From positions 1 through 64,000 of the forward strand of contig NZ_SDOY01000137.1 in NCBI RefSeq assembly GCF_004117935.1: a stretch of DNA of 64,000 bases. The letters run 5' to 3'. The DNA comes from Streptomyces roseicoloratus (GTDB taxonomy: Bacteria > Actinomycetota > Actinomycetes > Streptomycetales > Streptomycetaceae). A model generated the notes under the pieces. The model was given only the letters and a program-made list of their open reading frames with translations. It did not search any database and was not told the origin of the DNA. A program made the translations under genes and the position numbers. Positions 10,656-15,662 of this stretch are shown here, piece after piece; position 1 is the first letter of the stretch, and each line of letters opens with the position of its first letter.

Positions 10656-10674
10656 GTCTGCTTATCCTGTCGGC

Positions 10675-11136
10675 ATGCTGACCCTCACCCGAGCCCTGTA
10701 CGACCGGATCGTGGAACACTCCCGCGCGGACCACCCCGACGAGGCCTGCGGCGTGGTCGCGGGACCGGCCGGCACGGGCCGCCCCGAGCGCTTCATCCCC
10801 ATGCTCAACGCGGCGCGCTCGCCCACCTTCTACGAGTTCGACTCCGGCGACCTGCTGAAGCTCTACCGCGAGATGGACGACCGGGACGAGGAGCCCGTGA
10901 TCATCTACCACTCGCACACGGCGACCGAGGCCTACCCGTCCCGCACCGACATCTCCTACGCCAACGAGCCGCAGGCGCACTACGTCCTCGTCTCCACCGC
11001 CGACACCGACGGCGCCGGCCCCTTCCAGTTCCGCTCGTACACGATCGTCGACGGCGTCGTGGAGGAGGAAGAGGTCGAGATCGTCGAGGCGTACGAGCAG
11101 ACCCGGGCGTGCGGGCCCGCCCGAGCCGACGAGTAG
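10675..11136 (+). CDS. mec: JAMM/MPN+ metallopeptidase, Mec-like (CysO-cysteine hydrolase)
   Basis: Zinc metalloprotease of the M67 family, 153 residues. The JAMM signature is complete: Glu23 (DEACG), then HSH at 79-81, Ser89 and Asp92 (HxHx7SxxD). In mycobacteria the homologue Mec frees cysteine from the CysO-cysteine adduct; here cysO and cysM lie 3.3 kb downstream, supporting that role. It may also trim the two residues beyond the CysO GlyGly. TATCCT (10663-10668) stands 6 nt before ATG 10675, so the transcript is probably leaderless; no Shine-Dalgarno is seen. A cobalamin riboswitch follows within 20 bp of its stop. Confidence 0.9.
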   Translation: MLTLTRALYDRIVEHSRADHPDEACGVVAGPAGTGRPERFIPMLNAARSPTFYEFDSGDLLKLYREMDDRDEEPVIIYHSHTATEAYPSRTDISYANEPQAHYVLVSTADTDGAGPFQFRSYTIVDGVVEEEEVEIVEAYEQTRACGPARADE

Positions 11137-11154
11137 TCTGAGCGCGACCTTCAG

Positions 11155-11280
11155 GGCGGCAGGATCCAGGAAGCCGGTGCGACTCCGGCGCGGTCCCGCC
11201 ACTGTGACCGCCCCGACGGCCCGCCCGGCCCCAGCGCCGGACGGGCCGCGGTGGTGCGAGCCAGGAACTGACCTGCCGCC
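11155..11280 (+). promoter_or_regulatory. cobalamin (AdoCbl) riboswitch
   Basis: The closing stem pairs GGCGGCAGG (11155-11163) with CCTGCCGCC (11272-11280). Between them lie the conserved core elements of the class: GCCGGTGCGACTCCGGC, CGGTCCCGCCACTGTGAC, and GAGCCAGGAACTGACCTGCC. It ends 50 nt before the start of a substrate-binding lipoprotein gene whose Shine-Dalgarno region could be sequestered. This ties the downstream ABC transporter to vitamin B12 supply. Confidence 0.95.
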
Positions 11281-11329
11281 TTCTCACCACCGATCGGGGA
11301 CGTGGAAATCCCCGGAGGAGGCCACCGCC

Positions 11330-12307
11330 GTGACCTGGCGCCGCCCGCTGCTGCCCGCGCTCGCCCTCATACCCCTGCTCGCCGCCTGCTCCGCGCCGGT
11401 GCCCGAGGGCAGGGACGCCCGGCCCGAACACGCCCCGCCCGGCTTCCCGTACACCGTCACCAACTGCGGCGTGACCCTCACCTACCAGGACCCGCCGACG
11501 AGCGCGGTGACCCTGAACCAGCACACCACCGAGATCATGCTGGCCCTCGGCCTGGAAGACTCCATGGTCGGCACCGCCTACCTCGACGACGCGATCCTGC
11601 CCGCCTACCGCAAGGCGTACGACAGCGTCCCCGTCCTCGCCGAGGAGTACCCCTCCAAGGAGGAGCTGTTCCTCTCCGGCGCCGACTTCGTCTACGGCGG
11701 CTACGCCTCCGCCTTCGACGCCAAGGCCGGCCGCGGCCGCGAGGAGATGAAGGCCGACGGCAGGGACTCCCGCCTCAACGTCGAGTCCTGCGCCACCGGC
11801 CGCGTCACCTTCGACGACCTCCACCGCGAGATCACCGAGGTCGGCCGCACCTTCGGCGTCCCCGAACGCGCCGAGAAGTGGAACCGCGAGGCCCGCGCCA
11901 CGCTCGCCGCCACCGCCCGGCGGCTCAAGGGCACGCCGCCCGTGTCCGTCTTCGTCTACGACAGCGGCGACAAGACCGCCTTCACCGCCGGCGGCAAGGG
12001 CATCGGCAACGAACTGATCACCCGCGCCGGCGGCCGCAACGTCTTCGCCGACCTCGACAAGACCTTCGGCGACGCCACCTGGGAACAGGTCGTCGCCCGC
12101 AAGCCCGAGGTCGTCGTCATCTACGACTACGGCTCCACCACCGTCGAGCAGAAGAAGAAGCGGCTCCTCGACGACCCCGCCCTGCGCGAGGTCCCCGCCA
12201 TCAAAAACCGCCGCTTCGCCGTGCTGCCGCTCTCCGACACCGTGCTCGGCGTCCGCGCGCCCGCCGCCGTCGGCAAGCTCGCCGCCCAGCTGCACCCCGG
12301 CCGGTGA
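11330..12307 (+). CDS. btuF: cobalamin-type ABC transporter substrate-binding lipoprotein
   Basis: Extracytoplasmic binding protein of the FecB/BtuF fold, 325 residues. GTG 11330 gives a lipoprotein signal (RRPLLPALALIPLLAACSAP, with Cys as the lipidated residue) and has CGGAGGAGG 9 nt upstream. The two lobes and linking helix are recognisable: VTLNQHTTEIMLALGLEDSMVG, then VSVFVYDSGDKTAFTAGGKGIGNEL. The stop overlaps the permease start (GTGA). The cobalamin riboswitch upstream makes corrinoid uptake the best guess; the FecB fold alone would also allow a siderophore. Confidence 0.88.
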   Translation: MTWRRPLLPALALIPLLAACSAPVPEGRDARPEHAPPGFPYTVTNCGVTLTYQDPPTSAVTLNQHTTEIMLALGLEDSMVGTAYLDDAILPAYRKAYDSVPVLAEEYPSKEELFLSGADFVYGGYASAFDAKAGRGREEMKADGRDSRLNVESCATGRVTFDDLHREITEVGRTFGVPERAEKWNREARATLAATARRLKGTPPVSVFVYDSGDKTAFTAGGKGIGNELITRAGGRNVFADLDKTFGDATWEQVVARKPEVVVIYDYGSTTVEQKKKRLLDDPALREVPAIKNRRFAVLPLSDTVLGVRAPAAVGKLAAQLHPGR

Positions 12308-13314
12308 AGCGGTACGCGACCGTCGTCGCCGCCCTGCTCCTGGCGCTCGCCGCGGCCGTCGTCGCCTCGCTGGCGCTCGGCTCCGTCCGCATCCCGCCCG
12401 GCCAGGTGCTCGACGCCCTGACCGGCCGGGCCGCGCCCTCCCCGTACCGGACGATCGTGCTCGACGTCCGGCTGCCCCGGGTGCTGCTCGGCGCCGTCGT
12501 CGGCGCCGGACTCGCCGTCGTCGGCACCGTCCTGCAGGCCCTGGTCCGCAACCGGCTCGCCGACCCGTTCCTGCTCGGCATCTCCTCCGGGGCCTCCGCG
12601 GGCGCCGTCGCCGTGATCGTCCTCGGCGTCGGAGGCGGCATCACCACCACCGTCGCCCTGCCCGCCGGTGCCTTCGCCGGCTCCCTGCTCGCCCTCGTCC
12701 TCGTCTACGGCCTGGCCCGGCGCGGCGGCACCATGACCGGGCCCCGGCTCGTCCTGGCCGGGGTCGCCGTCTCGTACGTGCTGTCCGCGCTGACCACCCT
12801 GCTCCTGGTCGTCGCCGGCCGCCCCGAGCAGTTCCAGGAAGCCCTGTTCTGGTCCCTCGGCGGCCTCGGCAGCGCCCGCTGGGACAGCCTGCTGCTGCCC
12901 GCCGCCGTCCTCGCCGCCGGCACCGGCGCCCTGCTCACCCTCGCCAGGCCGCTCGACCTGCTGCTCACCGGCGAGGAGGGCGCGACCGTCCTCGGCCTGG
13001 ACACCGCCCGCTTCCGCGCCGCCGTCTTCGTCCTCGCCTCGCTGGTCACCGCCGTCCTCGTCGCCGCCAGCGGAGCCGTCGGCTTCGTCGGCCTGATGGT
13101 CCCGCACGCCGCCCGCGCCGTCGTCGGCGCACCCCACCGCCGGCTGCTGCCCGTCGCCGCGCTCGGCGGTGCGGTCGCCCTGGTCGTCGCCGACCTGGCC
13201 GCCCGGACCGCCGCCGCGCCGCAGGACATTCCCGTCGGCGTGCTCACCGCGCTCATCGGCGGCCCGTTCTTCCTCTGGCTGATGCGCCGCCGACCCGAAG
13301 GAGCGGCCCTGTGA
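12304..13314 (+). CDS. btuC: cobalamin-type ABC transporter permease (FecCD family)
   Basis: Integral membrane permease of the FecCD/BtuC family, 336 residues and about ten helices. GTG 12304 overlaps the binding-protein stop by 4 bp. Typical motifs include RLPRVLLGAVVGAGLAVVGT, the LADPFLLGISSGASAG region after the second helix, and GAVGFVGLMVPHAARAVVG containing the coupling helix that contacts the ATPase. Ends with the usual IGGPFFLWLMRRR. Partner of the binding protein before and the ATPase after it; the three genes form one operon under the riboswitch. Confidence 0.93.
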   Translation: MKRYATVVAALLLALAAAVVASLALGSVRIPPGQVLDALTGRAAPSPYRTIVLDVRLPRVLLGAVVGAGLAVVGTVLQALVRNRLADPFLLGISSGASAGAVAVIVLGVGGGITTTVALPAGAFAGSLLALVLVYGLARRGGTMTGPRLVLAGVAVSYVLSALTTLLLVVAGRPEQFQEALFWSLGGLGSARWDSLLLPAAVLAAGTGALLTLARPLDLLLTGEEGATVLGLDTARFRAAVFVLASLVTAVLVAASGAVGFVGLMVPHAARAVVGAPHRRLLPVAALGGAVALVVADLAARTAAAPQDIPVGVLTALIGGPFFLWLMRRRPEGAAL

Positions 13315-14096
13315 CCGAACTGCGCGTCGAAGCCCTGTCGTTCGAGGACCGGCTGCGCGAGGCGGACCTCGTCGTCCGTCCCGGCGAGACCGTCGGCCTC
13401 GTCGGCCCCAACGGCAGCGGCAAGACCACCCTGCTGCGCTGCGTCTACGGCACCCTCGCCGCCACCTCCGGCCGCGCCCTGCTCGACGGCGACGACCTGC
13501 GCGCGATGGGGCCGCGGGCGCGGGCCCGGCGGGTGGCGACCGTGCCGCAGGAGAGCTCCGCCGAGTTCGAACTGACCGTCCGCGAACTGGTCGCCCTCGG
13601 CCGCTCCCCGCACAAGCGGTTCTGGGAGGGCGACAGCGCCGCGGACCTCGCCCGGGCCGACGCGGCCCTGGACCGGGTCGGCATCCGGCACCTCGCCGAC
13701 CGCCCGTACCCCGGGCTCTCCGGCGGCGAACGCCAGCGGGCGCTGGTCGCCCGGGCCCTGGTCCAGGACCCTGCCCTGCTGGTCCTCGACGAGCCCACCA
13801 ACCACCTGGACATCCGCTACCAGCTCGAAGTCCTCGGCCTCGTCCGTCACCTGGGCACCAGCAACCTCCTCGCCCTGCACGACCTCACCCTCGCCGGGGC
13901 GTACTGCGACCGCCTCTACGTGCTGGAGCGGGGAAGGGTGGTCGCCGAGGGCCCGCCGCAGGACGTCCTCACGCCCGGGCTCCTGCGGACGGTCTACGGG
14001 GTGGAAGCCGAGGTCATGCCGCATCCCCGCACCGGAACCCCGCTTGTCGTTTATCTGCCGAGTCCGCCAGCCGAACGCAAACTGTCCGCCATGTGA
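13311..14096 (+). CDS. btuD: cobalamin-type ABC transporter ATP-binding protein
   Basis: ATPase subunit of the importer, 261 residues. Walker A is GPNGSGKT at about residues 33-40, the signature is LSGGE near 139, and Walker B is LLVLDEPTNHLD near 160; the switch His is in ALHDLTLA. GTG 13311 overlaps the permease stop by 4 bp, so the three subunits are translationally coupled. The gene ends 45 bp before the cysteine leader ORF. No terminator is evident between them, so read-through from the riboswitch operon into cysO-cysM is possible. Confidence 0.93.
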   Translation: MTELRVEALSFEDRLREADLVVRPGETVGLVGPNGSGKTTLLRCVYGTLAATSGRALLDGDDLRAMGPRARARRVATVPQESSAEFELTVRELVALGRSPHKRFWEGDSAADLARADAALDRVGIRHLADRPYPGLSGGERQRALVARALVQDPALLVLDEPTNHLDIRYQLEVLGLVRHLGTSNLLALHDLTLAGAYCDRLYVLERGRVVAEGPPQDVLTPGLLRTVYGVEAEVMPHPRTGTPLVVYLPSPPAERKLSAM

Positions 14097-14140
14097 GATC
14101 ACATTCCGAAACCCGGACCGGGAATCGATACGATGACCGC

Positions 14141-14314
14141 ATGGTTTCCCACGACGTGAGCGAAGAGACGCCGAGCACCGCCCTGCTCGCCACGTCCGCC
14201 GACGCTCCGTTCGCCTCCGCGTTGCTCGGGGCCTTCGGAGGCGGCGCGGCACGCCTGCACGTCGACCTGTGCCGACTCGCCAGCGCGATCTGTCCTTCTC
14301 GCGCCGAGCTCTGA
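14141..14314 (+). CDS. putative cysteine-responsive leader peptide
   Basis: Short ORF of 57 codons upstream of cysO-cysM. Its end reads LHVDLCRLASAICPSRAEL, matching the HVDLCR..AS..C pattern I recall from annotated putative leader peptides of sulfur genes in Streptomyces. Cys codons fall 10 and 17 codons before... the stop region, where ribosome stalling at low cysteinyl-tRNA could steer RNA folding. ATG 14141 lies 6 nt after a -10-like TACGAT (14129-14134), so the transcript is probably leaderless; an in-frame GTG at 14093 overlaps the btuD stop as an alternative. A GC-rich hairpin (CCCCC 14343-14347 with GGGGG 14356-14360) follows before cysO. Attenuation is inferred. Confidence 0.65.
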   Translation: MVSHDVSEETPSTALLATSADAPFASALLGAFGGGAARLHVDLCRLASAICPSRAEL

Positions 14315-14418
14315 CGACCGGCCCGAGCGCACCTCAGCACGACCCCCTGCCGCGCGGGGGCCCCACGCGCGCGCCCACCACGCCACCCGCCCCGCCCCTT
14401 CCGACAGGAGCCCACGCC

Positions 14419-15662
<1,244 letters not shown>

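Follow-up and report, generated by a model that had tools for sequence, protein, structure and literature searches.

The 57-codon open reading frame upstream of cysO-cysM in the 64,000-nucleotide stretch of DNA analysed here (the window) is probably a cis-acting, cysteine-sensing leader of that operon, with nested HrdB and SigR starts and a ribosome stall at a UGU codon; we put the probability of this reading at about 0.6. The sequence facts behind it are firm, and from them we infer the mechanism. Without stress, transcription by the housekeeping sigma factor would give an mRNA beginning at the leader ATG. Under thiol stress, SigR would use GGGAAT and the GTT in codon 2 to yield a leaderless, in-frame mRNA starting around codon 6 (GTG or ATG), and ribosomes reading either mRNA would have to pass a single shared sensor. 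If cysteinyl-tRNA runs short, a ribosome primed by the D-L-x-R nascent peptide would stall near the leader end with UGU in its A site, and the stall would let cysO-cysM be expressed; with ample cysteine the ribosome would pass and expression would be held down. The last step may be translational, as has been reported for leaders in mycobacteria, or may work through Rho-type termination in the C-rich spacer. A preliminary description of this DNA had proposed a leaderless cysteine attenuator, to which the comparisons add a putative superimposed SigR-type promoter, an NdgR-type site and the UGU codon.

14097 to 14111, + strand: putative NdgR operator-like site GATCACATTCCGAAA, with the conserved block GATCACAYTCCGG at -44
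14120 to 14125, + strand: putative SigR-type -35 element, GGGAAT
14129 to 14134, + strand: -10 box TACGAT of a leaderless promoter, presumably an HrdB promoter, six bases before the ATG at 14141
14141 to 14314, + strand: leaderless leader-peptide reading frame, 57 codons, MVSHDVSEETPSTALLATSADAPFASALLGAFGGGAARLHVDLCRLASAICPSRAEL, ATG at 14141, stop at 14312-14314
14144 to 14146, + strand: codon 2, GTT, also the candidate SigR-type -10 element
14156 to 14158, + strand: codon 6, GTG, from sequence comparison a candidate second leaderless start for the SigR transcript
14189 to 14248, + strand: rare in-frame extra segment of about 19 codons, ASALLGAFG-type, found in the window, L110 and L033
14258 to 14293, + strand: conserved leader motif HVDLCRLASAIC, whose last codon, TGT at 14291-14293, is the presumed sensor codon
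14343 to 14360, + strand: GC-rich inverted repeat CCCCCTGCCGCGCGGGGG after the leader, read directly
14406 to 14410, + strand: AGGAG before cysO, read directly
14419 to 14697, + strand: cysO, MoaD/SAMP-like sulfur carrier (NCBIfam SAMP1, E 1.2e-14; MoaD family, E 1.5e-12; both just under cut-offs)
14712 to 15662, + strand: cysM, cysteine synthase (TIGR01136 cysKM, 370.5 bits, cut-off 344.15)

Re-reading the coordinates bore out the original account of a 57-codon frame that starts 6 nt past a -10 box and precedes cysO-cysM, and sequence comparison confirms the frame as real and above chance. Its Cys codons are codons 44 (TGC, 14270-14272) and 51 (TGT, 14291-14293), seven apart and not in a run; they do lie near the end, and to speak of a cluster there was generous because just two are present. 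The leader stop is 104 nt from the cysO start. Among the best 80 of 534 cysO relatives, all Streptomyces save one Kitasatospora, the leader is kept in 79 (74 with the strict motif and 5 more by inspection, in a CR-x-AGA-x-C-like form) and is lost in L035. Mean entropy by codon position across 103 aligned leaders is 0.244, 0.092 and 0.515, with the third positions most variable, as expected of a translated peptide, and in 108 leaders the frame is kept despite a length of anything between 25 and 45 codons for the part that runs from codon 6 up to the last motif Cys. D and R fill profile positions 10 and 13 in 120/120 leaders read by model coordinates, with L or F at position 11, a uniformity that is partly ascertainment since the model selects for such residues; in Streptomycetaceae leaders, the codons of the motif D, L and R vary synonymously. 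Most leaders are 31-42 aa long (75 measured), those of the window, L110 and L033 being longer through the extra segment. The ASALLGAFG-type sequence is common to the window, its closest relative by cysO and one more distant species.

The 7.6-Mb genome around the window holds a second CysO-like gene (C174:29094-29369, 63% identical). Between a desampylase-like JAMM gene and cysO, the window has an ABC-transporter cluster at 10672-14096 (FecE/BtuD-like ATPase), while in many relatives the leader is preceded by what resembles the end of the desampylase-like JAMM gene and not by the ABC-transporter cluster.

Residues 37-51 of the leader match the NCBIfam model NF042934 (cis_reg_atten, ‘putative leader peptide’) with 30.8 bits against a curated cut-off of 27, and the own genome holds five matches above that cut-off, the window's included, and three more leader-like sequences below it. 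NF042934 leaders typically sit upstream of sulfur genes. For each of the seven paralogues, at most 200 residues of the following gene were scanned, with NCBIfam matches all under cut-offs: on these partial sequences, three paralogues precede SsuA-, sulfite/nitrite-reductase- and mercaptopyruvate sulfurtransferase-like genes and two precede flavin reductase-like and DctA-like symporter genes, and the genes after the remaining two have no NCBIfam match and by eye resemble a cysteine-dioxygenase-like cupin and a 2-oxoglutarate oxygenase-like protein. The earlier statement that similar short peptides precede sulfur genes in Streptomyces thus agrees with what the window's own genome contains, several of these paralogues standing ahead of sulfur-type genes. 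The window leader shares its motif with NF042934; the model, however, describes the peptide alone and is silent on promoters and codon choice, and the window frame is longer by its rare in-frame segment. At another locus, L013, an SsuA-like gene is preceded by a leader of the same type that stays open, with no stop, until 25 bases upstream of the gene.

A tie to mycobacterial Cys-codon leaders had also been suggested, and the family relationships favour it. The window leader itself scores 14.9 bits against the Ms5788A model NF042933, below the cut-off of 45, and its paralogue C90 reaches 41.3 bits (E 1.5e-9), under the same cut-off; NF042934-type and Ms5788A-type leaders look like kin on these alignments. 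Mycobacterial polycysteine leaders such as Ms5788A, reportedly described by Canestrari in 2020, are likewise short and Cys-containing, with an [HA]VDLCR-type motif, but the window leader has two spaced Cys codons in place of a run, and a SigR-type promoter inside the reading frame. TnaC, the E. coli arrest peptide that responds to free tryptophan, would be alike in that a short leader, through its nascent peptide, primes the ribosome to stall close to its end; it differs in what it senses, the conserved codon of the cysO leader being the Cys codon UGU (UAG in three leaders). Synonymous codon choice serves as a sensor in B. subtilis sinR too, which senses through serine codons, although there several codons of a protein-coding gene are involved and here one leader codon (PMC3862929). 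In the portion of the S. lividans reannotation that bears on this, eight leader peptides are named and none is called cysteine-dependent (PMC8079986); a ‘metL’ leader before metNIQ is printed there with several Cys (Table 4) and might be a Cys leader, not a Met one.

In the cysO leaders having the motif, the last motif Cys is TGT in 108/108, and the first is TGC in 106. The Streptomycetaceae set comprises 98 leaders from 18 genomes plus the window's, made up of 90 of 126 matches (30 taken as loci and 60 chosen, mostly higher-scoring and non-cysO) and, from the window's own genome, the top 8 of 21; here the codon is UGU in 95, UGC in 1 (L249) and UAG in 2 (L186 and L222), which is UGU in 95/96 family leaders with a Cys at that place. 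A class-wide set, drawn from 30 of 91 matches and the top 20 of a search with the NF042933 model, less 3 duplicates, and including L309 from the window's own genus, gives UGU in 45/46 leaders with a Cys, the exception being UGC in L286; L287, which is under the cut-off, has no Cys there. Because the searches were made by protein model or by cysO, the third base could not have been selected. The other motif Cys is TGC in 44 cases and TGT in 3 (94 leaders; Fisher p 2e-33, a value that ignores relatedness), these 94 leaders comprising 84 distinct DNA motifs, with 85 not of cysO type, and the Cys background, taken from 17 long stretches of the window chosen for their base composition, is 55 TGC and 15 TGT. 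D-F-x-R is carried both by L203, with UGU, and by L249, with UGC.

The UGU bias suggests a codon-specific, peptide-primed sensor. It bears on a simpler account of the same leader as a plain codon-starvation attenuator of the mycobacterial polycysteine type, in which only the presence of Cys would count, the stall would unmask the cysO site, and SigR RNA, lacking the ATG, would bypass the leader. That account draws on the motif family held in common with NF042933 and on translation attenuation of M. smegmatis cysteine genes, as cited in the text of PMC13236596. Yet the motif 12-mer holds a single Cys codon in 56/94 leaders, a mere need for Cys leaves UGU in 95/96 unexplained, codon 6 remains a start codon (GTG or ATG), and models show no opening of the cysO ribosome-binding site; we consider it unlikely. 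A strict UGU sensor, for its part, leaves unexplained the UGC in L249 and L286 and the UAG that stands exactly where others have UGU in three leaders (L121, L186 and L222), and polycysteine leaders have further Cys codons besides the aligned UGU. Sulfur-dependent modification of tRNA-Cys is a possible route of UGU sensing; a pattern search of the genome for tRNA-Cys gave no match, the pattern itself being probably faulty. Pairing of CUGU with ACAG in the ribosome-binding region of cysO was rejected as a general cause of the bias, since ACAG occurs in 84/108 leaders and UGU in 108/108, and UGU is kept before other genes.

The promoter region of the leader is conserved in a different manner, as DNA. 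The 111 cysO loci compared are the window, the 80 best relatives and 30 from Streptomycetaceae genomes that were chosen for lacking an exact 27-base pattern present in 89/200 family genomes. The -10 box is TACGAT in 96/111 and another TAnnnT in 15, and the ATG follows it by six bases in all of the first 81 loci, the other 30 starts having been assigned using that box. A promoter scan called no sigma-70-like promoter in 13900-14720, and TACGAT has no good -35. In the window and its 80 relatives, TACGATG, GTT at codon 2 and GTG at codon 6 are each present in 81/81, and the putative -35 is GGGAAT in 80/81, with AGGAAT in L097. Spread over the wider set, GGAAT-N18 or N19-GTT occurs in 110/111 loci, the exception being L121, with GTT within the codon 2 region. 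In 19 further loci, GTT is shifted by one base (ATGCGTT or ATGTGTT) and codon 2 becomes Arg or Cys; GTT stays while the amino acid changes, so DNA and not peptide is conserved at this point. GTT accounts for 19/655 Val codons in the 17 long open window stretches picked by base composition.

These elements compose a putative SigR-type promoter, GGGAATC-N16-GGTT with T as the next base, that overlaps the leaderless promoter. The SigR consensus is GGGAAT(G/C)-16nt-(C/G)GTTG (PMC3489674), and the window sequence agrees with the pattern GGGAAT(G/C)-N16-(C/G)GTT. Across the genome, GGGAAY-N18-GTT occurs at 61 sites, against 10 for a reversed control. In M. tuberculosis, mec-cysO-cysM is under the direct control of SigH, which corresponds to SigR in mycobacteria; the SigH consensus wants a purine where the window site has C (PMC4803200). 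The S. coelicolor cysM gene is described in PMC4340878 as ‘hardly expressed’ without diamide and as induced by it. The putative window promoter resembles the SigR and SigH promoters of cysO-cysM in its fit to the SigR consensus (PMC3489674), but its -10 element lies within codon 2 of a reading frame that has its own leaderless promoter.

With GTT, GGGAAT and TACGATG near-invariant as DNA, one could take the whole block for chiefly a promoter and operator region (SigR, HrdB, NdgR) with an incidental reading frame. SigR-like elements indeed occur within 400 bases of cysO, with no leader, in 11/21 parsed loci outside Streptomycetaceae (21 of 22 such loci were parsed, and an NF042934-type leader is absent in all 21), and L035 and L120 retain their promoters with no leader. 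We regard this account as very improbable: peptide-type conservation extends about 100 nt past the promoters, length changes keep the frame, and leaders of the family also stand at other genes. L035 and L120, which keep the -10 and SigR-type elements upstream of cysO and have lost the Cys leader, are natural losses that could serve as controls.

Promoter and leader are seen superimposed only in the window's family and occur apart elsewhere. G294 and G304, two genomes from one other family (leaders L314 and L313), have an NF042934 leader ending in UGU about 310-340 nt before cysO, and there is no SigR-like element over the leader start in either; since the leader stands before cysO there without the overlap, the nested design is not general.

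The same comparison places a candidate start inside the reading frame. With codon 6 taken as +1, the first base of GGAAT would be at -35 and GTT would occupy -12 to -10. This codon reads GTG in 106/111 cysO loci and ATG in 3/111; the exceptions are L120, where the leader is broken, and L121, where GGGAAT and GTT are both lost. We infer that two nested leaderless starts, at codons 1 and 6, may feed one sensor. GTG at codon 6 is weak evidence by itself because other Val codons are biased too, the Val of HVDLC being GTC in 102/104 and that of LVARL GTG in 80/104, and L035 keeps GTG at the codon 6 position yet has no leader to start.

Upstream of both promoters, the conserved block GATCACAYTCCGG equals the NdgR ChIP-seq motif GATCACACTCCGGAA given for the S. 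coelicolor peak at 3163207-3163221 (PMC4340878, Table 1). Against the published 15-bp NdgR consensus, the window agrees at 12/15 positions at 14097-14111 and at 13/15 in an overlapping frame from 14104. SCO2910-SCO2912 are listed as NdgR targets (PMC4340878), and the peak presumably belongs to them. A CRP-like reading of the TGTGAGATCACA repeat was dropped, the block having matched the S. coelicolor NdgR motif.

In the proposed mechanism, a stall might be passed on to cysO through translation or through Rho, both being candidates. The preliminary description had placed a GC-rich hairpin after the reading frame. The inverted repeat is there in the window and in some relatives, with a different sequence in others, and no terminator-like site was called in 13900-14720, the hairpin at 14343-14360 included; what stands of the leaderless attenuator first proposed is the -10 box, the NF042934 membership, the conserved Cys codons and the cysteine genes downstream, and not the hairpin as terminator. 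In fold models of 8 hand-picked loci and of 106 of the 111 loci, a stalled ribosome did not consistently open the cysO ribosome-binding site: with the stall modelled at UGU, the mean change at that site was 0.000, with 15 up and 14 down of 106.

Under Rho-dependent attenuation, release at the leader stop would let Rho act in the C-rich spacer, and a ribosome at UGU would block it, as in E. coli tnaC. No intrinsic terminator was called around the leader, and spacers have mean fractions of 0.499 C and 0.283 G across 106 loci (0.58 and 0.27 in the window), an excess that would suit Rho, though it is weak and not specific. A computational study suggested Rho for terminator-less Cys leaders of mycobacteria, Propionibacterium acnes and Bifidobacterium longum, and itself calls its Rho-site prediction rather weak (PMC1262725). 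We treat Rho as possible at rather less than even odds, and it can be combined with the peptide-primed UGU sensor.

A peptide acting in trans, or a riboswitch-like structure in the coding RNA, would also be compatible with strong peptide conservation, and the consensus folds do lie below 30 column shuffles (z -4.7 for 36 sequences of one clade and weakly, z -2.4, for 27 of another). The folding used 36 and 27 of 75 sequences kept, with L036, L038, L048, L092, L096 and the motif-less loci omitted. The two clades show different consensus structures, however, and an Rfam scan gave no match up to E 1, which makes this account highly improbable.

Returning to the cysteine-sensing leader, its relatives may extend the reading. 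The actinobacterial leaders could form one conditional arrest-peptide class, primed by D-L-x-R. In it, a single wobble-read UGU at a fixed distance would be the sensor and might report the charging of tRNA-Cys or its sulfur-dependent modification; at cysO, the leader would have a SigR promoter folded in, with both starts, at codons 6 and 1, leaderless and reporting to the UGU. We advance this wider reading tentatively and would not yet bet on it.

The kind of leader is known, and the UGU codon and the inner SigR-type promoter appear to be two layers that we did not find in print: among the matches listed in the open-access literature, we recognised no account of the UGU bias or of a SigR promoter inside this leader. 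If the reading is true, a redox sigma factor, an IclR-type regulator and a cysteine sensor would be joined at one operon within about 200 bases, and the vague notion of Cys codons near a stop would become one testable base, the third position of UGU. Because leaders sampled across the class retain that third base, a single synonymous change made in a laboratory strain would bear on the whole family. The motif with its UGU would also give a way to find single-Cys leaders that searches for cysteine runs would miss.
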